A stretch of 22,938 nt of DNA from a virus. Under the pieces are notes generated by a model. The model did no database searches. It worked only from the letters and a program-made list of their open reading frames with translations, and had not been told where the DNA came from. Below are positions 2,378 through 9,320 of the stretch, one piece after another. The stretch spans positions 1 through 22,938 of IMG/VR virus record IMGVR_UViG_3300044613_000223, one strand, 5' to 3'. The translations under genes and the position numbers were made by a program. Numbering within the stretch: the first letter of the stretch is position 1; every line of letters starts with the position of its first letter.

Positions 2378-3271
2378 TTACGTGGGGATTTCTACCCAGT
2401 TTGGTGTCTGGTTATCATTGATTATACCCCAAACAAGCACGCTAGCGATAGAACCGGTAGCCTGAACACCAGTTGGGAAGACGTTGGCCGTACCTGTAAC
2501 CGTTACTGTGCCTACCGATCCAGTGGCCGAGACCCCGGTGACTGCAACGTTCTGGCGTACACTAATCGCAACAGTACCAACATCCCCAGTGGCCGAGACC
2601 CCGGTGGGGGAGGCGCTAGCCCCGGCTGCAACGTCAACAGTCCCGACAAACCCCGTAGCAAAAACACCCGATACGTTAAAGTTTGCAGCGGCAGATATGG
2701 TTGCCGTACCTACAGACCCAGTGCCTGAGACCCCGGTGACGTTGACTCGTATCCCAAAAACAACAGTAACCGTGCCTACTGAACCAGTGGCATCGACCCC
2801 GGTGACGTTGGCATTAGCAGCGGCGGCGGGGGTAACTGTGCCTACCGAACCAGTGGCTTCCACCCCAGTGACGTTGGTATTAGCGGCAGCGGCGGGGGTA
2901 ACTGTGCCTACAGACCCAGTGGCCTCGACCCCAGTGACAACGGCGTTAGTGACCGCCTGAACGGTAACTGTGCCTACAGACCCAGTGGCATCAACCCCAG
3001 TGACGTTGGTATTAGCGGCAGCGGCGGGGGTAACTGTGCCTACCGAACCAATGGCTTCGACACCAATTAATGTAACATTTCCAATAGCTTGGACGGTAAC
3101 TGTACCTATGGAACCGGTGGCCTCGACCCCGGTGACATTAACCTGCTCGTTCTCAAATACCGTTACAGTGCCAATAGACCCAGTGGCATCGACTCCAGAT
3201 ACAACTACTGAAGCAGCGCCAGAGCCAGAACCTGCGAAGGTATCCGCCGCAAAGGGGAAAAAACCAAACAT
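2378..3271 (-). CDS. Structural protein of twelve exact 22-residue repeats
   Basis: A 297 aa protein, almost all of it repetitive. After a 25 aa N-terminus (MFGFFPFAAD, then Gly/Ser/Ala), residues 26-280 hold twelve copies of a unit with consensus GVxATGSVGTVTV plus nine variable residues often ending NVT. Spacing is exactly 22 residues throughout, with no insertions or deletions. The protein ends VWGIINDNQTPNWVEIPT, a tail I recall from related environmental phage repeat proteins. Regular Val/Thr/Gly spacing fits a beta-solenoid or other fibrous beta fold. It is placed between endolysin and tail fibre, so a fibre or virion-surface role is likely. No enzymatic motif is visible. GAGGGG precedes the ATG. 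Confidence 0.75.
   Translation of the reverse strand: MFGFFPFAADTFAGSGSGAASVVVSGVDATGSIGTVTVFENEQVNVTGVEATGSIGTVTVQAIGNVTLIGVEAIGSVGTVTPAAAANTNVTGVDATGSVGTVTVQAVTNAVVTGVEATGSVGTVTPAAAANTNVTGVEATGSVGTVTPAAAANANVTGVDATGSVGTVTVVFGIRVNVTGVSGTGSVGTATISAAANFNVSGVFATGFVGTVDVAAGASASPTGVSATGDVGTVAISVRQNVAVTGVSATGSVGTVTVTGTANVFPTGVQATGSIASVLVWGIINDNQTPNWVEIPT
2432..3196 (-). repeat. 66-bp tandem repeat array, 12 units, last one partial
   Basis: This is the DNA of the twelve 22-residue units: eleven full 66-bp units plus a final 39 bp core. The conserved part reads on the plus strand roughly as ACTGTGCCTACnGAnCCAGTGGC followed by CCCCnGTGACG. Units 5 and 6 (roughly 2800-2935) are nearly identical in DNA, including a shared GCAGCGGCGGGGGTAACTGTG stretch, which points to recent duplication. 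Outer units have diverged. Confidence 0.92.
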
Positions 3272-3750: not shown

Positions 3751-3978
3751 CTATGGCTGTTCAACTGTCCCAGTGGAGGTTTCTCTGTCTATTTTTAGTA
3801 CGCCTTCGCAGCATATGCTCCAATCTTCGCCTGTTTTTTGCCCACGGCTTGGAACATTGATGCAAATGTTTTTGAACAGGTATTCTTTTTCGTCTTCAAA
3901 TACACGCCAGACATGATCCATCGTCCCACGGTTTACCTGACCACGGGCCTTGTTAAACCGTATCTGGAACTGAGCCAT
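3751..3978 (-). CDS. Conserved small phage protein of unknown function
   Basis: A 75 aa protein of the form FQIRFNKARGQ...GTMDHVWRVFEDEKEYLFKNICINVPS...GEDWSICCEG...DRETSTG. I recognise this pattern from small hypothetical proteins of cyanophages and other aquatic phages, usually near oxygenase or lysis genes, but know no function. It is compact and charged, has three cysteines (at residues 39, 56 and 57) and lacks membrane segments or catalytic motifs. Its ATG overlaps the upstream oxygenase stop (TAATG), so translation is probably coupled. Confidence 0.75.
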   Translation of the reverse strand: MAQFQIRFNKARGQVNRGTMDHVWRVFEDEKEYLFKNICINVPSRGQKTGEDWSICCEGVLKIDRETSTGTVEQP

Positions 3979-4616
3979 TAGACAACCTCTGCCGTTGGCG
4001 GGTGACAGACTTGGGAAACCACCGGCCTAGTGTCGATGTTCATGTGCAAGAACGTGAAGGGCTTGCTGGAGGTATTTCGGGTAAAACTGTGCGGTAGCCA
4101 CGAATTAGCAAACATCAGAGTTCCCGGCTTTGGCGTAAAGTTAATTGCACTGGATGCTGGTGAAACTACATTTACATCAGCCTCGCGCAGAGGAGACATA
4201 ACCTTACCGGGCCTTGGGTCATGGATCACCAAGCGCGGCGGGTCTTTCGGACATTCCAAAAAGTAGAATGCAACCAGCTTGCAGTCACCGTGGAGGTGGT
4301 ATTCCATAGACGAGTATTTATCGTGCTGTTGGCACCAGAACTCGGTAAAATACGTCTCCAGCCCCTCCATCACATAGCCTTGGTCCTTGAGCAGGTTCCA
4401 GCCGGTGTTGATGGTATAGTCCCAGAACGGGGTTATGCGCGGCTCATTATCGAACCCAGCCATTGTGACCGGGTAGATTTCATCCAGTTTCACTTCTTTA
4501 CGGACCTTCCGCAGGCTGTCCTTGCTGGCGGCGAGAACGTCGCTCAGGAACTCGGGCTTTTCTATGCTGTATACCGGCGACGAAAAATACTGCCACTGGT
4601 CTAGTGTGTCTGCCAT
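3978..4616 (-). CDS. 2OG-Fe(II) oxygenase-like protein (Oxy_5-type)
   Basis: A 212 aa double-stranded beta-helix protein. The core reads EYHLHGDCKLVAFYFLECP (105-123), LVIHDPRPG (129-137), KPGTLMFANSWLPHSFTRN (163-181) and FTFLHMNI (188-195). This order (HxH, a dPR turn, PGxLxxFxSWLxH, then a final strand) matches the 2OG-FeII_Oxy_5 group common in aquatic phages. Likely metal-side residues are His107, His109 and His176. The first motif is HxH where canonical enzymes have HxD/E, so catalysis is uncertain. The substrate is unknown. The neighbouring gene at 4622-5215 is a second, clearly different oxygenase, so the pair are not simple duplicates. Confidence 0.78.
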   Translation of the reverse strand: MADTLDQWQYFSSPVYSIEKPEFLSDVLAASKDSLRKVRKEVKLDEIYPVTMAGFDNEPRITPFWDYTINTGWNLLKDQGYVMEGLETYFTEFWCQQHDKYSSMEYHLHGDCKLVAFYFLECPKDPPRLVIHDPRPGKVMSPLREADVNVVSPASSAINFTPKPGTLMFANSWLPHSFTRNTSSKPFTFLHMNIDTRPVVSQVCHPPTAEVV

Positions 4617-4621
4617 GTCGA

Positions 4622-5215
4622 TTACCTAAACTGCGGGCCGGTAGTCCACACGACGATGGACTTGCGTATACCCTTGGTGACTGGGGTAACCCTGTGAAGC
4701 CTGTAGGCTGGAAAAGCCACGACCAAGCCGCGCTCTCTATTAGCAACCGTAACGTCTTTTCCGTTCATAAATTCTAATTTCCCACCCTCATATTCGCCGG
4801 GGTCGGAAAGTTGCAGTGACAGGCTTAGTTTGCGCGGACAGGTATTATCCCCGCCAGCGTCGATGTGCCAGTCATAGTGGTCGCCGCCACTGCCGTAGAC
4901 CGTGTACTGCATATCCTCCACGAACCCGTACAGATCAAAGCGGTAAAAGATTGAATTGATCTTACGGGCTATGAAGGCCATTTTATCGTAGAACCAAGCC
5001 GTATCGTTGTTGTTAGTGATCCAGCCAGTGCGCGATTGACGCCACTCAGGGGCAGTCCCGCCACCACTTATTATGGACCCAGATAGAGGTAGGTTCTGGT
5101 CACAATACGCCGAAATCCTGTCCAACTCTTCCTTAGAAAAACCGTTCTCCCAAGTGGCAAACACGTTGTTCTCAGCTTCAGTTGGCGGCGGCGGCGCAAA
5201 CACATAGTTCGACAT
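4622..5215 (-). CDS. Prolyl-4-hydroxylase-like 2OG-Fe(II) oxygenase (PKHD type)
   Basis: A 197 aa dioxygenase of the PKHD/prolyl-4-hydroxylase group, which uses 2-oxoglutarate, O2 and Fe(II) to hydroxylate protein side chains, classically proline. The active site is complete: HYDWHID gives His117 and Asp119, YRLHRVTPV gives His174, and KGIRKS gives the 2OG-binding Arg184. The family hallmark RKLSLSLQLSDPGEYEGG lies between them. I place the start at the ATG at 5215, which overlaps the previous stop as TGATG; a GTG one codon upstream is less likely. AGGA lies just upstream. It follows the collagen-like fibre gene by three cistrons, so the fibre's X-Pro-Gly sites are a possible substrate. That link is inference. 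Confidence 0.88.
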   Translation of the reverse strand: MSNYVFAPPPPTEAENNVFATWENGFSKEELDRISAYCDQNLPLSGSIISGGGTAPEWRQSRTGWITNNNDTAWFYDKMAFIARKINSIFYRFDLYGFVEDMQYTVYGSGGDHYDWHIDAGGDNTCPRKLSLSLQLSDPGEYEGGKLEFMNGKDVTVANRERGLVVAFPAYRLHRVTPVTKGIRKSIVVWTTGPQFR

Positions 5216-5934
5216 CACAGTTTCCTATGGATGTGGTTGCGGTACACGGACTGGTTGACGAGCGTCTTCATCTTACGCATCCAGCCAGTGTTCTTCTTGT
5301 CCTCTTCTGAAACCGGACGGCACCTATGGGTCGAAAGCAGACTGTCTTTTCGGATCGGTATTACCTGCATCAAGGGCGTCCCGGCTTCTACGACACCCCG
5401 AAAATCATTCTTCGTAAATATGAAAGGAAAGTTTACATACTCGTACTGAAAGTACGGGTGATCCACAATGCCAGAGTAACAGACAAATCGGTCCTCGACC
5501 CGGTTGAGTGGCGGCAGGAATAGCAGCGAGTATTCCGGCGGCGTCTTAATCATCCACCAGTTGAGGAACTTCATGGGTGGGCGCGGGTCCGAAGGGTTCG
5601 GACATTTCTCGGAAGAGATTTGTTTAGGGTTGTGCGTTTCCACCATATTTTTGTGGAACATCCACTTAAAATCTACGCCTGATCCATCGCTGTTGGATAC
5701 AAACTCAACGTCAGCGGCCAGTGGTATAATGTAGCCAACGGAAAGCGCGTCGAGGAAGGGAGAGCATCTTTTTATGGTTGATGTTCCCAGACCCTGATTT
5801 CCCAGCTTCATAGGCAGAGCCTTGAACCAGTCGGGGATGTTCTTTTTGGAAGGGTAGGGTGTCGGGATTATACCATAGTCCTCTTCGGCGCAGAGGAACT
5901 CAATCTCGTCGTTCTTGAACGCGGTCCTAAACAT
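5215..5934 (-). CDS. Conserved phage protein, DUF6065-like
   Basis: A 239 aa protein without membrane segments. Recognisable parts are IPDWFKALP (33-41), TIKRCSPFLDALSVGYIIPLAADVEF in the first half, the aromatic-rich NWWMIKTPPEYSLLFLPPLNR, and GVVEAGTPLMQVIPIRKD near residue 190. The CSPFLDALxxGYIIPLxxD segment is what I associate with DUF6065, seen in cyanophages and other aquatic phages beside 2OG oxygenases. The function is unknown. The start is the ATG at 5934, whose A is shared with the preceding stop (TGATG). An in-frame extension to 5994 lies inside the previous gene and was rejected. Its stop overlaps the start of the prolyl-hydroxylase-like gene, suggesting coupled expression. Confidence 0.7.
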   Translation of the reverse strand: MFRTAFKNDEIEFLCAEEDYGIIPTPYPSKKNIPDWFKALPMKLGNQGLGTSTIKRCSPFLDALSVGYIIPLAADVEFVSNSDGSGVDFKWMFHKNMVETHNPKQISSEKCPNPSDPRPPMKFLNWWMIKTPPEYSLLFLPPLNRVEDRFVCYSGIVDHPYFQYEYVNFPFIFTKNDFRGVVEAGTPLMQVIPIRKDSLLSTHRCRPVSEEDKKNTGWMRKMKTLVNQSVYRNHIHRKL

Positions 5935-6134
5935 CAGTTCTGTCCGTTGCCCCTCTTGTAGTAAATGCTCCCCCCTTTGACGGCGAGGATGCACCTAGAA
6001 ACCTCCCGCTCGCCCATGAGTATATGGTCGTCGTGAAGGTTTAATTTCTCGTTATTATTTATCCAGTTACGTTGGTACTGCGGTAATCCGTCGAACGCGG
6101 CCATGACGGCCCTGCGCCTGCTCTCGTCTACCAC
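5934..6134 (-). CDS. Small charged protein of unknown function
   Basis: A reading frame of 66 aa between the collagen-like fibre and the DUF6065-like gene. It is rich in Arg, Asn, Asp and Glu (SRRRAVMAAFDG, LPQYQRNWINNNEKLNLHDD, GGSIYYKRGN), with a single Cys. I do not recognise a family. The GTG at 6134 overlaps the fibre stop by 7 nt but has a weak ribosome site. An internal ATG at 6104, preceded by CAGGGCC, would give 56 aa and is an equally good start. The TGATG junction at its end and the lack of any gap support it being translated. Confidence 0.55.
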   Translation of the reverse strand: MVDESRRRAVMAAFDGLPQYQRNWINNNEKLNLHDDHILMGEREVSRCILAVKGGSIYYKRGNGQN

Positions 6135-8125
6135 GTTACCGTAATTGTACCAGAACCACCACCCGATCCTACGGTGACGGAGATTTGTTGGAAGGGATAA
6201 ACCTGAGATGCGGTGGTGTTACTTGTGGGGGCTACAGAACCAGAATTGCCAGCGCCGCCTGAGTTAAAGGACCCTGCGTTACCAGAAGTTGCGCCTGTAC
6301 CCGCCGAGCCGGTAGTACCTGCATTACCGTTAGCCCCCGCATTGCCCGGTGTGCCTGCGCTGCCAGCAGTAGCGCCTGTACCATTCGCGCCGGTAGTACC
6401 TGCGTTACCGTTCGCTCCAGCGTTACCCGGAGAGCCTGCACTACCGCCAGTCGCACCGTTGCCGTTTGCGCCCGTAGTACCTGCGTTACCGTTTGCCCCA
6501 GCATTGCCCGGATTACCCGCGCCGCCGCCTGTCGCACCGCTACCACCGCCACCGGGATTACCCCCTGCGCCAGAACCACCAGCATTACCGGCACTGCCGC
6601 AAGCATAGCAACCACCGGCACCACCGCCGTTACCGGCACTTGTATTATTACCCGCTAATCCCGGATTGCCGCCACCGCCACCCTGTCCGCCAGCACCGCC
6701 GCCACCACCGCCACCACCGCCTGTGGAACCAGCATTGCCAGCCGCGCCCGGATTACCCGCACCGCCCGCGCCGCCGCCGTTACCGCCGTTACCATTACTA
6801 CCGGGGTTGCCCGAATTGCCTGTAGCGCCGGGATTGCCAGCATTACCCCTAGCCCCACCTGCGCCGCCATTACCATTGGTGCCGGGATTGCCCGAATTGC
6901 CTGTAGCGCCGGGATTGCCAGCATTACCCCTAGCCCCACCAGCCCCACCAGTACCGTTATTACCGGGATTGCCGGGGTTCCCGGTGCCGCCCGAATTACC
7001 AGCAGCGCCGCCCGTTCCATTGGCACCCGTTCCAGCAGTTCCGCCATTACCGCCAGCGCCGCCAGCAAAGCTCGCTATGTTACCAAAAGTTGTCGCGTTC
7101 CCCGTATTACCGGGATTGCCGACATTGCCGTTTGCAGCGCCCGTGCCTGCGTTACCATTTGCGCCAGCATTACCCGGACTACCAGCAGCGCCAGAAGTTG
7201 CGCCTGTACCATTCGCGCCGGTAGTACCCGCATTACCGTTGGCCCCGGCATTACCGGGGCTACCAGCCGCACCAGCATTTGCACCAGTGCCATTAGCGCC
7301 GGTATTACCGGCATTCCCGTTTGCTCCTGCGTTACCCGGAGAGCCCGCGCTACCGCCTGTCGCACCGCTACCACCGCCACCGGGATTACCCGGATTTCCG
7401 TTCGCGCCAGCATTACCCGGATTACCGCCGCTACCGCCTGACCCACCGCCACCGCCACCGCCGCCACCGCCGCCAATGTTGTAATTACAGCAACCTTGAG
7501 GAGAGCCAAGGCCACCACCGCCGCCCGTTCCACCAAAAGGACTACCACCGGGTCCGCCGGATCCACCCGCAGGAAACCCTGCATTCCCACCAGTACTTCC
7601 TCCCGGATTGCCAGCCGCGCCGCCACAGCCAAAATAAGAGCCGCCGCCGCCGCCGTTACCACCCGCGCCACCCGCACCGCCACTACCGCCATTACCGTTA
7701 TTACCGGGGTTGCCAGCGTTGCCCGACGCACCGGGGTTACCTGCATTGCCGCGTGCGCCACCAGCGCCACCGTTGCCATTAGTGCCGGGATTGCCCGAAT
7801 TACCTGTAGCGCCGGGATTACCTGCATTGCCGCGTGCGCCACCAGCGCCGCCATTACCATTGGTGCCGGGATTGCCAGCGTTTCCTGTCGCACCGGGGTT
7901 GCCTGCGCTCCCCCCTGCTCCACCAGCGCCACCATTGCCGTTATTGCCCGGATTACCCGGATTTCCAGCAGTACCGGGATTACCGGCACCGCCCGCATTA
8001 CCCGTTCCGCCTTTGCCAGACAAATTAACGCTGTAGACCCCAGTCGGAACCGTAAAGGTTCCCGACGTGTTGAAGGTCTGGCTGCTGGACCCGACGCTAG
8101 TCGAGCCGAGGTGGGGCAGAGGCAT
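6128..8125 (-). CDS. Collagen-like glycine-rich fibre protein
   Basis: A 665 aa protein, the most unusual product here. Residues 13-37 form a beta edge (SGTFTVPTGVYSVNLSG) and 645-665 a closing edge (QQISVTVGSGGG then TITVTW), the same frame as the 239 aa adhesin. Between them almost everything is Gly-X-Y, mostly GNP, GNA, GAN, GTN and GAG. Array A (46-155) and array B (236-345) are separated by a Gly-run segment with Cys167, Cys212 and Cys213. After a linker (about 343-378) the plan repeats: A at 380-465, a Gly-run segment with Cys506 and Cys509, B at 526-618. Proline sits almost always in position Y before Gly. A collagen triple helix or polyglycine-II fold is likely. It is presumably an adhesin or fibre. 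Two downstream oxygenases may modify it. Confidence 0.8.
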   Translation of the reverse strand: MPLPHLGSTSVGSSSQTFNTSGTFTVPTGVYSVNLSGKGGTGNAGGAGNPGTAGNPGNPGNNGNGGAGGAGGSAGNPGATGNAGNPGTNGNGGAGGARGNAGNPGATGNSGNPGTNGNGGAGGARGNAGNPGASGNAGNPGNNGNGGSGGAGGAGGNGGGGGSYFGCGGAAGNPGGSTGGNAGFPAGGSGGPGGSPFGGTGGGGGLGSPQGCCNYNIGGGGGGGGGGGSGGSGGNPGNAGANGNPGNPGGGGSGATGGSAGSPGNAGANGNAGNTGANGTGANAGAAGSPGNAGANGNAGTTGANGTGATSGAAGSPGNAGANGNAGTGAANGNVGNPGNTGNATTFGNIASFAGGAGGNGGTAGTGANGTGGAAGNSGGTGNPGNPGNNGTGGAGGARGNAGNPGATGNSGNPGTNGNGGAGGARGNAGNPGATGNSGNPGSNGNGGNGGGAGGAGNPGAAGNAGSTGGGGGGGGGAGGQGGGGGNPGLAGNNTSAGNGGGAGGCYACGSAGNAGGSGAGGNPGGGGSGATGGGAGNPGNAGANGNAGTTGANGNGATGGSAGSPGNAGANGNAGTTGANGTGATAGSAGTPGNAGANGNAGTTGSAGTGATSGNAGSFNSGGAGNSGSVAPTSNTTASQVYPFQQISVTVGSGGGSGTITVTW
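6807..6940 (-). repeat. Near-perfect 81-bp direct repeat in the collagen-like gene
   Basis: A 53-bp stretch starting at 6807 recurs without change at 6888, an offset of 81 bp or 27 codons (nine Gly-X-Y triplets). Related but synonymously diverged copies lie near 7735-7880. The B arrays also repeat at 27 residues (GSPGNAGANGNAG units). The identical copies look recent and could recombine, changing fibre length in frame. Confidence 0.88.
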
Positions 8126-8127
8126 TG

Positions 8128-8553
8128 TTAAGCACCGCTCGTCGAGCCTGATGAACGCCCCATGGCGTAAAGTTCTGCAATGTTAGATGACAGTATGTTT
8201 TGCAGACCCATAATTACAGCCTTCGGCCACTGATCTAACGGCAGAACGTCATCGCATTTAGTGAAGATCAGGAATGGAAACTCGTTAAAAGTATGCAGAC
8301 CATCCTCAAAAACCCAATCATTTAGAGGGGGGAAAACTTCTGCGTGCTGCGCAGGATCAGCATAATTCAGCCAGTTATACTTGATCCCCAGACTATCTAG
8401 GTGCGCCTTGGCTTTGTAGCTGTCGCTCGTCTCGTCCTCAACCCACTTCAAGGTATCGTGTTCGACACCATCGGGGGTTGTCACCTTTGTCGGAACCTGA
8501 ACATAGGTCACGGCGGTGTTGAGATAGATAGCGTCTATTTTGGTAAATGCCAT
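8128..8553 (-). CDS. Hypothetical phage structural-region protein
   Basis: A 141 aa soluble protein between two fibre genes. It begins MAFTKIDAIYLNTAVTYVQV, contains DTLKWVEDET, AHLDSLGIKYNWLNYAD, PPLNDWVFEDGLHTFNEFPFLIFTKCDD, and ends in a Ser/Gly tail. The alternation of a helix, a short strand near IKYNWLNY, and FPFLIFT is faintly reminiscent of a thioredoxin-like fold, but there is no CxxC and only one Cys. I recall similar hypothetical proteins in aquatic phages without a function. The ATG follows AAGGAAGGGGG. Its position between the 250 aa fibre-like protein and the collagen-like fibre suggests a tail attachment or assembly role, which is a guess. Confidence 0.65.
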   Translation of the reverse strand: MAFTKIDAIYLNTAVTYVQVPTKVTTPDGVEHDTLKWVEDETSDSYKAKAHLDSLGIKYNWLNYADPAQHAEVFPPLNDWVFEDGLHTFNEFPFLIFTKCDDVLPLDQWPKAVIMGLQNILSSNIAELYAMGRSSGSTSGA

Positions 8554-8567
8554 GACGGCCCCCTTCC

Positions 8568-9320
8568 TTACAAGTTAGCCAAAGACAGCGAGCCGAAGTA
8601 CGTCGTGCCGCCGTCAAACGTGATGAAATTGAAAATATCAACCTTGCCAACCGTTGTTGTCAGGGAAGGAGTCGAATTATTAGGGAACTTTACAGAAGCA
8701 GGCCAAGTGGCCGTGTAGGAACCCGATCCACCCTGCTTGATAGCAATCAGGAAATTAGACGTTGTGCCGCCAGCAGCCGGGTTTGAGAACGTAAATGTCG
8801 TGCTACCGGTCAAAGTTATATTGAAAATGTTAGCCGTAGACATGTCAACGGTGAAGGTGCCGGTGACGGTTGCGTTAGTCGTGGTTGTTTCGCGGTAGGC
8901 TGCAAACGTAGGTGTGGTCAGCGCCGTTCCGTTAAAAGTTAAAGTCGCCGCATCAGTGAGTAGACCATCAGTTGTAACAAAAGGCACACGACCTGAAGTA
9001 AGCGCGGCGCTGTTAAGGTTTACAGACCGCTCTGAGGGGTAAGTTACGAAGACGTTGGAAGTACCACTAAGGGTGATCTTAGTAGTACCGCCCGCGCTGG
9101 AGGAAAGTACAGTAGTACGTGCTAGTGTAGTACCAGACGACGTGTAGGTACCGATACCAACTTCCCAGTTGTTACCGCTCGTAAGCGTGTAGTACGTCGT
9201 ATTACCATCACCTACAACCGCAAAAGACTGATAGCCAGTAAGGGCACCAGCAAGTGTTACCGTGCCAGTGCCCGTTGTGGTAGTCGTCTCTTGTACGCGG
9301 TCTGCGAGAACTAACGCCAT
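8568..9320 (-). CDS. Fibre-like virion structural protein
   Basis: A 250 aa beta-rich protein. The N-terminus LADRVQETTTTTGTGTVTLAGALTGYQSFAVVGDGNTTYYT, then WEVGIGTYTSSGTTLARTTVLSSSAGG, is a pattern I recognise from many environmental phage structural proteins. The C-terminal half (TGTFTVDMSTANIFNITLTG, TTFTFSNP, FLIAIKQGGSGSYTATWP, FNFITFDGGTTYFGS) resembles the receptor-side domain of such proteins. It contains no enzyme motif. The ATG is immediately after the stop of the 157 aa gene. The likely role is a minor fibre or tail protein, placed between the adaptor/tail genes and the long fibres. Confidence 0.72.
   Translation of the reverse strand: MALVLADRVQETTTTTGTGTVTLAGALTGYQSFAVVGDGNTTYYTLTSGNNWEVGIGTYTSSGTTLARTTVLSSSAGGTTKITLSGTSNVFVTYPSERSVNLNSAALTSGRVPFVTTDGLLTDAATLTFNGTALTTPTFAAYRETTTTNATVTGTFTVDMSTANIFNITLTGSTTFTFSNPAAGGTTSNFLIAIKQGGSGSYTATWPASVKFPNNSTPSLTTTVGKVDIFNFITFDGGTTYFGSLSLANL

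Follow-up and report, generated by a model that had tools for sequence, protein, structure and literature searches.

A viral Gly-X-Y fibre with proline before glycine and its candidate PKHD-type prolyl hydroxylase

The viral record IMGVR_UViG_3300044613_000223 (IMG/VR; 22,938 bases, all of which is called the window here) carries mostly structural genes for a portal, major head protein, tail proteins and holin, and every window gene named below lies on the minus strand. One of its genes encodes a 665 aa fibre of Gly-X-Y triplets with proline mainly in the Y position, directly before glycine, and the third gene downstream encodes a 2-oxoglutarate (2OG)-Fe(II) oxygenase of the PKHD/prolyl 4-hydroxylase (P4H) type. 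Among sampled viral contigs, oxygenases lie close to most fibres with proline in Y and to few Gly-X-Y proteins with proline in X. On these sequence comparisons, the window probably holds a phage fibre-maturation cassette, in which a glycine-rich adhesin is encoded with a PKHD-type oxygenase that would hydroxylate its Y-position prolines. The pairing of X-Pro-Gly fibres with the PKHD family suggests that fibre modification in phages may resemble that of collagen in animals.

6128..8125, minus strand: Gly-X-Y fibre, 665 aa, 30 X-Pro-Gly sites (composition and repeat analysis)
4622..5218, minus strand: PKHD/P4H-type 2OG-Fe(II) oxygenase with intact HxD...H...R, the candidate fibre prolyl hydroxylase (Pfam, alignment and profile comparison)

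A Pro-Gly-rich fibre and a PKHD-type oxygenase

The fibre contains 270 Gly, 101 Asn, 100 Ala and 38 Pro residues. Thirty of the 38 prolines are in Pro-Gly, 24 of these in Asn-Pro-Gly, and Gly-Pro occurs only once. Uninterrupted Gly-X-Y extends for 42 triplets (residues 39-164) and 37 triplets (residues 367-477), with shorter runs elsewhere. An initial annotation of this DNA had described a 665 aa protein made mainly of Gly-X-Y with about 30 X-Pro-Gly sites, mostly Asn-Pro-Gly, and these counts bear it out.

The same annotation had placed a PKHD/P4H-type oxygenase with a complete catalytic centre three genes downstream, and this was correct: hmmscan of the translated gene gave 52.2 bits for PF13640 (cut-off 27), a stronger test than a looser whole-record search with the same model, which listed no match. 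Numbered from the GTG start, the centre consists of His118-x-Asp120, His175 and Arg185; this HxD...H...R set (iron triad and 2OG-binding Arg) is invariant in 15/15 aligned sequences. It agrees with the His117, Asp119, His174 and Arg184 given previously, because those numbers were counted from the second codon. The enzyme was assigned to PHROG 61 (4.4e-33). In profile comparison with the PDB, it matched the PKHD protein 3dkq (8.5e-15) and, more weakly, the P4Hs 5hv0 (4.1e-6) and 2jig (5.8e-4), and by score it thus appears nearer to PKHD/PiuC than to P4H. The label of prolyl hydroxylase, a putative activity, rests on family chemistry and on the association described below. A plasmid search with a relative of the window enzyme returned 55 records, every one below 60% identity.

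Oxygenases accompany most sampled viral fibres with proline before glycine

IMG/VR contigs were sampled with DNA patterns for GNPGNPG, GPTGPTG and GNAGNAG, and because each scan stopped at 120 stretches, the results are samples rather than censuses. In-frame open reading frames (ORFs) were present in 110/120 GNPGNPG and 118/120 GPTGPTG stretches, with oxygenase matches at 52 and 7 loci, respectively. We tested ORFs of at least 150 aa with at least 20% Gly and at least 8 unbroken Gly-X-Y triplets. Loci were joined when they had at least 800 bp in common with an identity of 85% or higher, and the longest ORF per cluster and class was kept (141 of 177 ORFs).

A PKHD match lay within 2.5 kb of 38/61 Y-Pro ORFs (proline before glycine) compared to 5/69 X-Pro ORFs (proline after glycine; Fisher 9e-12), 0/5 low-proline and 1/6 mixed ORFs; the background, from random ORFs in loci without a Gly-X-Y protein, was 10/174. 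Where 2.5 kb of flank was available on both sides, the PKHD counts were 15/16 for Y-Pro and 0/12 for X-Pro. Matches to any of three oxygenase models within 2.5 kb were found for 44/61 Y-Pro and 6/69 X-Pro ORFs, for 28/31 and 3/25 with at least 1.5 kb on both flanks, and for 15/16 and 1/12 with 2.5 kb on both flanks, although the models were trained partly on matches in the sampled loci, the PKHD model was seeded from relatives of the window enzyme, and the third, whose seed was encoded beside a Y-Pro fibre, could be biased towards the Y class. Fourteen of the 17 Y-Pro ORFs without an enzyme have less than 1.5 kb on one side; the fair exceptions are L195, L499 and L262 (loci are cited by such handles), the last of which has a PKHD match at 2,954 bp. 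The nearest oxygenase was on the strand of the fibre in 44/44 cases, 22 upstream and 22 downstream, at a median distance of 562 bp.

Because the Y and X classes differ in glycine content, we also compared them within glycine strata. At 27-33% Gly, an oxygenase accompanied 13/17 Y-Pro and 1/14 X-Pro ORFs; at 27% or more with 1.5 kb flanks, the figures were 27/27 and 0/5. A proline-blind sample of 43 deduplicated glycine-rich ORFs with GNAGNA gave the same picture: an oxygenase lay within 2.5 kb of 22/30 ORFs with at least 1 Pro-Gly per 100 aa compared to 1/13 below that density (p = 1e-4), and with 1.5 kb flanks the counts were 14/14 and 1/5. Asn-containing repeats are common to all of these ORFs, which leaves proline as the point of contrast. 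The proline-blind loci comprised 103 new ones and 11 already in the GNPGNPG sample, with up to 6 further stretches missing.

All ORFs up to 3 kb from the 61 Y-Pro fibres were also clustered without preselection. The families were a tail-fibre-like one (38 loci; this is our reading, and the example has no Pfam match), PKHD (33), a second PF13640 family (24; one member confirmed by Pfam at 45.3 bits), a family like the 141 aa protein described below (19), one of median 177 aa (19), DUF6065 (16), one whose example matches a PHROG called ferrochelatase (15), a PF13759 type assigned by likeness (13) and an unnamed family (13). Around the 69 X-Pro proteins, no neighbour family exceeded 13 loci and the PKHD-like family reached 5. 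Among cultured phages, ORF 040 of cyanophage S-SSM5 (PG 10, GP 5) lies 1.6 kb from an oxygenase.

Gene order and the enzyme tree

Relatives of the cassette were found by searching viral contigs with the oxygenase and with the DUF6065-like protein encoded between fibre and oxygenase. The other cassette members are as follows.

8568..9320, minus strand: tail fibre protein, whose C-terminal part accompanies the cassette (recurs in relatives)
8128..8553, minus strand: 141 aa protein, encoded upstream of the fibre and conserved there (recurs in relatives)
5934..6134, minus strand: 66 aa protein between fibre and DUF6065 (kept in most cassette copies)
5215..5994, minus strand: DUF6065-like protein (PHROG 7084), open frame, accessory (Pfam, PHROGs)
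3978..4616, minus strand: 2OG-FeII_Oxy_5-type protein with His-x-His...His, optional member (Pfam, alignment)

The common order is the C-terminus of the tail fibre, the 141 aa protein, the Gly-X-Y fibre, the 66 aa protein, DUF6065, the oxygenase and sometimes a PF13759-type gene. The arrangement from fibre to oxygenase is more than chance, because most relatives preserve it, to a DUF6065 identity as low as about 50%. Gene ends overlap along the window cassette (6134/6128, 5994/5934 and 5218/5215), as for a coupled operon. Across about three-quarters of its length, the window portal shares 42-44% identity with the portals of Planktothrix phages and of the pelagiphages HTVC023P and HTVC027P. In L083, the capsid protein is 38% identical to that of the window, the cassette genes are 82-97% identical, and the fibre is 100% identical over the 36 residues aligned by BLAST. 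L083 has the cassette despite being only a distant relative in its head genes, so the cassette is able to move as one block. L111-L113 keep the downstream genes, and the fibre is on the opposite strand about 1.6 kb past the PF13759-type gene (in L111 and L113; L112 is cut), while the L116 stretch (46%) begins too near the gene to judge the fibre. At DUF6065 identities of 43% or less, the oxygenase is often still adjacent, and glycine-rich ORFs occur at the distant DUF6065 loci L141, L142 and L146.

We also placed the fibre association on an enzyme tree of 86 rows, from which rows without a fibre and with short flanks were left out. The 51 Y-associated rows required 9 label gains or losses, at least 6 of them forced by supported branches. 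One supported clade of 36 rows holds 35 Y rows, the other being L200, which has a Pro-rich glycine-rich protein 6 kb away; 5/6 X-associated rows fall in their own small group.

A fibre built of four matched arrays

The fibre is ordered as N-cap, array A, Cys/aromatic loop, array B, centre, array A', loop', array B' and C-terminal strand. Its four arrays consist of 27-residue Gly-X-Y repeats closed by conserved end caps, and array B misses Gly once per 27 residues. Coordinates of the two longest runs were computed from residue numbers.

7634..8011, minus strand: array A and its ends, residues 39-164, 27-residue repeats
6695..7027, minus strand: array A' and its ends, residues 367-477

Motif counts (A:B:A':B') were 4:3:3:4 in the window and L003, 3:2:2:3 in L007, 5:4:4:5 in L008, 5:4:4:4 in L086 and 10:9:9:10 in L087, with scattered loose-motif matches outside the 27- to 30-residue series set aside; L088 did not fit the motifs. 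An independent lag-27 measure agreed to about 1 unit (window, 3.7/3.8/3.0/3.1) and gave 6.9/6.2/6.4/5.6 for L097 and 7.4/7.2/7.2/7.6 for L431. Further fibres with matched arrays are L190 (9.7/9.2/9.0/9.5) and L405 (5.7/5.0/5.6/5.2); L179 is irregular, and L088, L103 and L104 have a best period other than 27. Each arm spans about 2 to 11 units across fibres. The array lengths co-vary, with all pairwise r at least 0.979 and 0/20,000 permutations as tight, in six lineages chosen by us (window, L007, L008, L087, L097 and L431) and uncorrected for relatedness. Near-copies (L003, L098, L100, L451 and L472) and fibres whose period is broken or differs (L086, L088, L103 and L104) were left out, and one of the L087 values (9.6) is a manual sum that spans a 30-residue unit. 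Periodicity is only weak in 41/61 Y-Pro fibres, so just some members of this class take the four-array form.

Since the four array lengths change together and the arrays have end caps, the sequence points to a single chain that reverses direction three times to give an antiparallel bundle, like the polyglycine-II adhesins. The fibre could instead be a true collagen, a triple helix of three parallel chains with the oxygenase as its P4H, and the unbroken triplet runs with proline in Y would suit that structure. Glycine occupies every third residue over long runs, as in Pfam Collagen (PF01391), and the fibre matches collagen chains in the PDB (3hqv, 2.8e-27), although this score is probably inflated by composition. 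However, the PF01391 score of 22.3 bits falls below the curated 27.2, glycine is lost periodically in array B, and four matched, co-varying array lengths have no obvious reason in a parallel trimer. Moreover, some relatives have a separate ordinary phage collagen next door in the opposite proline register: two such neighbouring Gly-X-Y proteins occur in L003/L083 (one contig), L089 and L004. The ordinary collagen has GP 66 and PG 2 in L003 and GP 40 and PG 1 in L004, compared to GP 1 and PG 30 in the cassette fibre.

L003 4908-6642; L004 2-1097; L089 4298-6032: ordinary phage collagens (proline in X) beside a Y-Pro fibre

We therefore consider a true collagen quite improbable, and the fold, as we read it, agrees better with polyglycine-II adhesins and the antifreeze bundles of springtails than with a trimeric collagen. 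The description of the protein as collagen-like in the initial annotation holds for its Gly-X-Y runs, but the triple-helix reading is probably wrong in detail, given the co-varying arrays and end caps. Pfam Gly_rich_2 (PF21722) gave no match for the 665 aa protein. In a separate observation, the PDB entry named spindlefibril/axialfibril (8zxl/9ius; 8zxl at 4e-20) matches the fibre; a literature search on the entry turned up nothing.

Weighing the pairing of enzyme and fibre

Several observations weigh against the reading of the cassette as a bundle-forming fibre with its own prolyl hydroxylase. Six X-Pro collagens have an oxygenase nearby. At 33% Gly or more, the single X-Pro ORF has one (1/1, compared to 29/37 Y-Pro), and the contrast is weak at 20-27% Gly (2/7 Y-Pro, 4/54 X-Pro). 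The proline-blind and GNPGNPG tests overlap because of the 11 loci common to both. Among viral Y-Pro ORFs with three [Ser/Thr]-Pro-Gly motifs, an oxygenase was near only 3/11 (1/4 with flanks), and in bacterial genomes near 0/20 (0/10 with flanks), where most ORFs have only 20-27% Gly; these samples (117/120 and 119/119 stretches examined) were not deduplicated. Glycine-rich ORFs near oxygenases in pelagiphage HTVC023P show no Y bias (PG/GP 4/4, 10/7, 6/6, 5/7 and 1/3). When PKHD matches were fetched by enzyme similarity (L011-L080), 0/73 had a Gly-X-Y fibre within 3 kb, and for 23 of these a full 3 kb was available on each side. Fibres of this kind thus mostly come with an enzyme, whereas the enzyme can occur without a fibre. 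Where DUF6065 identity is 43% or less, the flanks covered contained no long Gly-X-Y fibre. By the lag-27 measure, L451 and L472 differ from L431 by about 1 unit in one array. Finally, AlphaFold models were unusable for the fibre as a single chain (pLDDT 34, with only end strands 22-26 and 659-663 predicted) and for DUF6065 (9 rows, pLDDT 41). The co-occurrence check proposed in the initial annotation thus came out positive for viral contigs and failed in the Ser/Thr-Pro-Gly and bacterial samples; the enzyme-fibre pairing it postulated gains from the association statistics in sampled viral contigs but is not a rule for every X-Pro-Gly protein.

The failures in these two samples, together with the existence of related oxygenases without such fibres and the movement of the cassette as a block, would suit a different explanation, in which fibre genes and oxygenases share an exchangeable region and the oxygenase acts on the host envelope, DNA or a small molecule. 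Passages of a cyanophage paper (PMC9146016) reiterate an earlier proposal that such enzymes act in DNA repair. We regard such hitchhiking as rather unlikely, because X-Pro proteins of the same collection rarely have an oxygenase, the presence of an oxygenase depends on Pro-Gly density in the proline-blind sample, and the enzyme tree demands repeated label changes.

It is also unlikely, in our judgement, that the oxygenase modifies the fibre elsewhere, such as at the Asn of Asn-Pro-Gly or at proline C3, perhaps anchoring sugars. The predominance of Asn before Pro-Gly (24/30) and the weak association in the Ser/Thr-Pro-Gly sample are in keeping with this idea, as is the clustering of several oxygenase families around such fibres. 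S-SSM5 also has a gene annotated as leprecan-like 4.6 kb from a glycine-rich ORF, leprecan being a relative of prolyl 3-hydroxylase. On the other side, 77/101 Asn residues of the window fibre lie outside Asn-Pro-Gly, and in the sample where every ORF contains GNAGNA, the association follows Pro-Gly density.

Under hydroxylation of Y-position prolines, which we favour, the 665 aa protein would be a long glycine-rich tail-fibre adhesin, a role suggested by its place and composition. Its single chain would double back repeatedly to give four antiparallel arms of polyproline/polyglycine-II strands; the loops rich in cysteine and aromatic residues would form the tip of the fibre, and the caps its base. 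The oxygenase would act on the nascent or unfolded fibre during infection, and the resulting hydroxyprolines would make the strands more stable or prepare them for additional modification. Where present, the PF13759-type enzyme would add a second modification.

Other genes of the cassette and further glycine-rich proteins

The initial annotation had also noted a second oxygenase-like gene and a DUF6065-like gene next to the oxygenase, and both were recovered. The former scored 34.1 bits for PF13759 (2OG-FeII_Oxy_5; cut-off 27). Its His-x-His...His is present in 32/32 aligned rows, and its co-substrate is uncertain because no Arg is found among the well-conserved columns. The DUF6065-like protein scored 20.4 bits for PF19541, below the 26.6 cut-off, and matched PHROG 7084 at 1.3e-53; its start is probably the ATG at 5934, where the homologues in L087 and L088 begin. 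Profile comparison gave no relation between DUF6065 and the oxygenase family (probability 0.2%), and DUF6065 had no match among solved structures.

Relatives of DUF6065 were found in 61 phage records, 46 of them named Halorubrum or Haloarcula, plus two named Halophage. In 3 haloarchaeal virus records, a glycine-rich protein with 24-27% Gly and 1-3 Pro-Gly is encoded at a distance of 0.9-1.4 kb from DUF6065, and in 1/3 its annotation is adhesin; these stretches carry no oxygenase annotation, and no search aimed at oxygenases was made there. Glycine-rich adhesins of haloarchaeal tailed viruses are described as key host-range determinants in passages of PMC8651126. We considered DUF6065 as the main partner of the fibre and rejected this, because many fibre-plus-oxygenase loci lack DUF6065, the haloarchaeal DUF6065 genes lie near Pro-Gly-poor proteins, and their loci have no annotated oxygenase; it is thus not an obligatory partner. 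Most likely, though on weak support, it is an assembly or folding helper of glycine-rich adhesins. As a side observation, Haloarcula virus HJTV-1 (L510, 7896-8738 and 9661-10830) has DUF6065 0.9 kb from a putative adhesin, a locus that may link archaeal and bacterial virus adhesin loci.

The 66 aa protein is not in L086, L114 or L115. The 141 aa protein has no match in the PDB or PHROGs and one sub-threshold Pfam match.

The window encodes two further repetitive proteins. The product of 474-1193 is glycine-rich, with 17.6 bits for Gly_rich_2 (below the 24.3 cut-off) and a match to PHROG 863 (2.3e-10), and may be a smaller polyglycine-II tip protein; 2378-3271 encodes a 297 aa protein built of repeats like VTGVEATGSVGTVTP, without a Pfam match. 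Elsewhere, the single contig L418 encodes three glycine-rich Y-Pro ORFs, and for two of these a PKHD-family enzyme is no more than 0.5 kb away. The cultured phages S-SSM5 (L511 7064-8230) and HTVC023P (L513 3033-8813) have glycine-rich proteins near several oxygenases; in HTVC023P the former are gp59-gp62 and the oxygenases gp65, gp66 and gp71. PHROGs 3531 (ferrochelatase) and 2297 (DNA endonuclease) also match PKHD-type oxygenases, and PHROG 2954 covers a frequent neighbour (cf. L239 6988-7833); these names look doubtful. Passages of a pelagiphage paper state that a 2OG oxygenase adjoins every phage ferrochelatase (PMC9599517).

Relation to known systems

2OG-Fe(II) oxygenases are numerous extra genes in the marine phages of the literature covered: excerpts describe a cyanophage with nine copies (PMC9146016) and eight non-orthologous kinds in pelagiphages. 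Parts of PMC9301287 call the use of the viral P4H "cryptic" and mention it together with tail-fibre collagen as an open question. In the passages covered of the open-licence PMC literature (including PMC9599517, PMC10436341 and PMC9611531), we found no data-based pairing of phage fibres with these oxygenases. A wider claim, which we hold less likely than not when taken as a whole, is that phages have a hydroxyproline chemistry of their own for X-Pro-Gly-rich polyproline-II fibres, some of them four-arm bundles with length set by 27-residue arrays; such fibres would be matured by PKHD-type oxygenases recruited more than once, and a large part of the marine-phage 2OG "auxiliary metabolic genes" would be fibre-maturation enzymes. 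A fibre substrate, if true, would replace a vague metabolic label by a step in virion assembly and host recognition that can be tested. The four-array pattern provides an easy approach to the control of fibre length in some phages.

The nearest parallel in chemistry is animal collagen with its P4H, which the window fibre resembles in having Gly-X-Y with proline in Y, and chlorella virus PBCV-1 likewise encodes an enzyme of the P4H superfamily (cited in a passage of PMC9301287). Unlike either, the present system belongs to a bacteriophage, with an enzyme nearer PKHD/PiuC, Asn before Pro, a likely single-chain bundle and adjacent genes in an operon. The window enzyme shares PHROG 61 with phage 2OG oxygenases that resemble human EGLN3, the human protein most often matched by phage proteins and widespread in phages of marine bacteria according to passages of the Phold paper (PMC12774648); those passages name no substrate, whereas a fibre is proposed here. 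Ordinary phage and bacterial collagen-like proteins, such as EPcl of E. coli prophages, are also Gly-X-Y tail proteins but prefer proline in X, whereas the window fibre prefers it in Y and has a candidate enzyme. Passages of PMC3368898 state that a preference for Y is absent from non-animal collagens and that the enzyme is missing in bacteria and viruses, which our proposal, if true, would correct for viral collagens.

In architecture, the window fibre is comparable to the T-even gp38 adhesins with a polyglycine-II sandwich (S16, PP01), the "brush" domains of phages and the hafunavirus adhesins, which are described as having glycine-rich motifs, variable loops and a host-range tip protein (passages of PMC12892980, PMC13243795 and PMC8651126). 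Unlike in these proteins, strands of the window type are lengthened by 27-residue arrays, carry X-Pro-Gly and have an oxygenase. The antifreeze proteins of springtails (snow fleas) also have G-X-X repeats, and passages of PMC10235112 describe their helices as antiparallel polyproline-II bundles in which X-Pro-Gly prolines carry +16 Da, being partly hydroxylated. Unlike the window fibre, these are small eukaryotic proteins, and we claim no shared ancestry.

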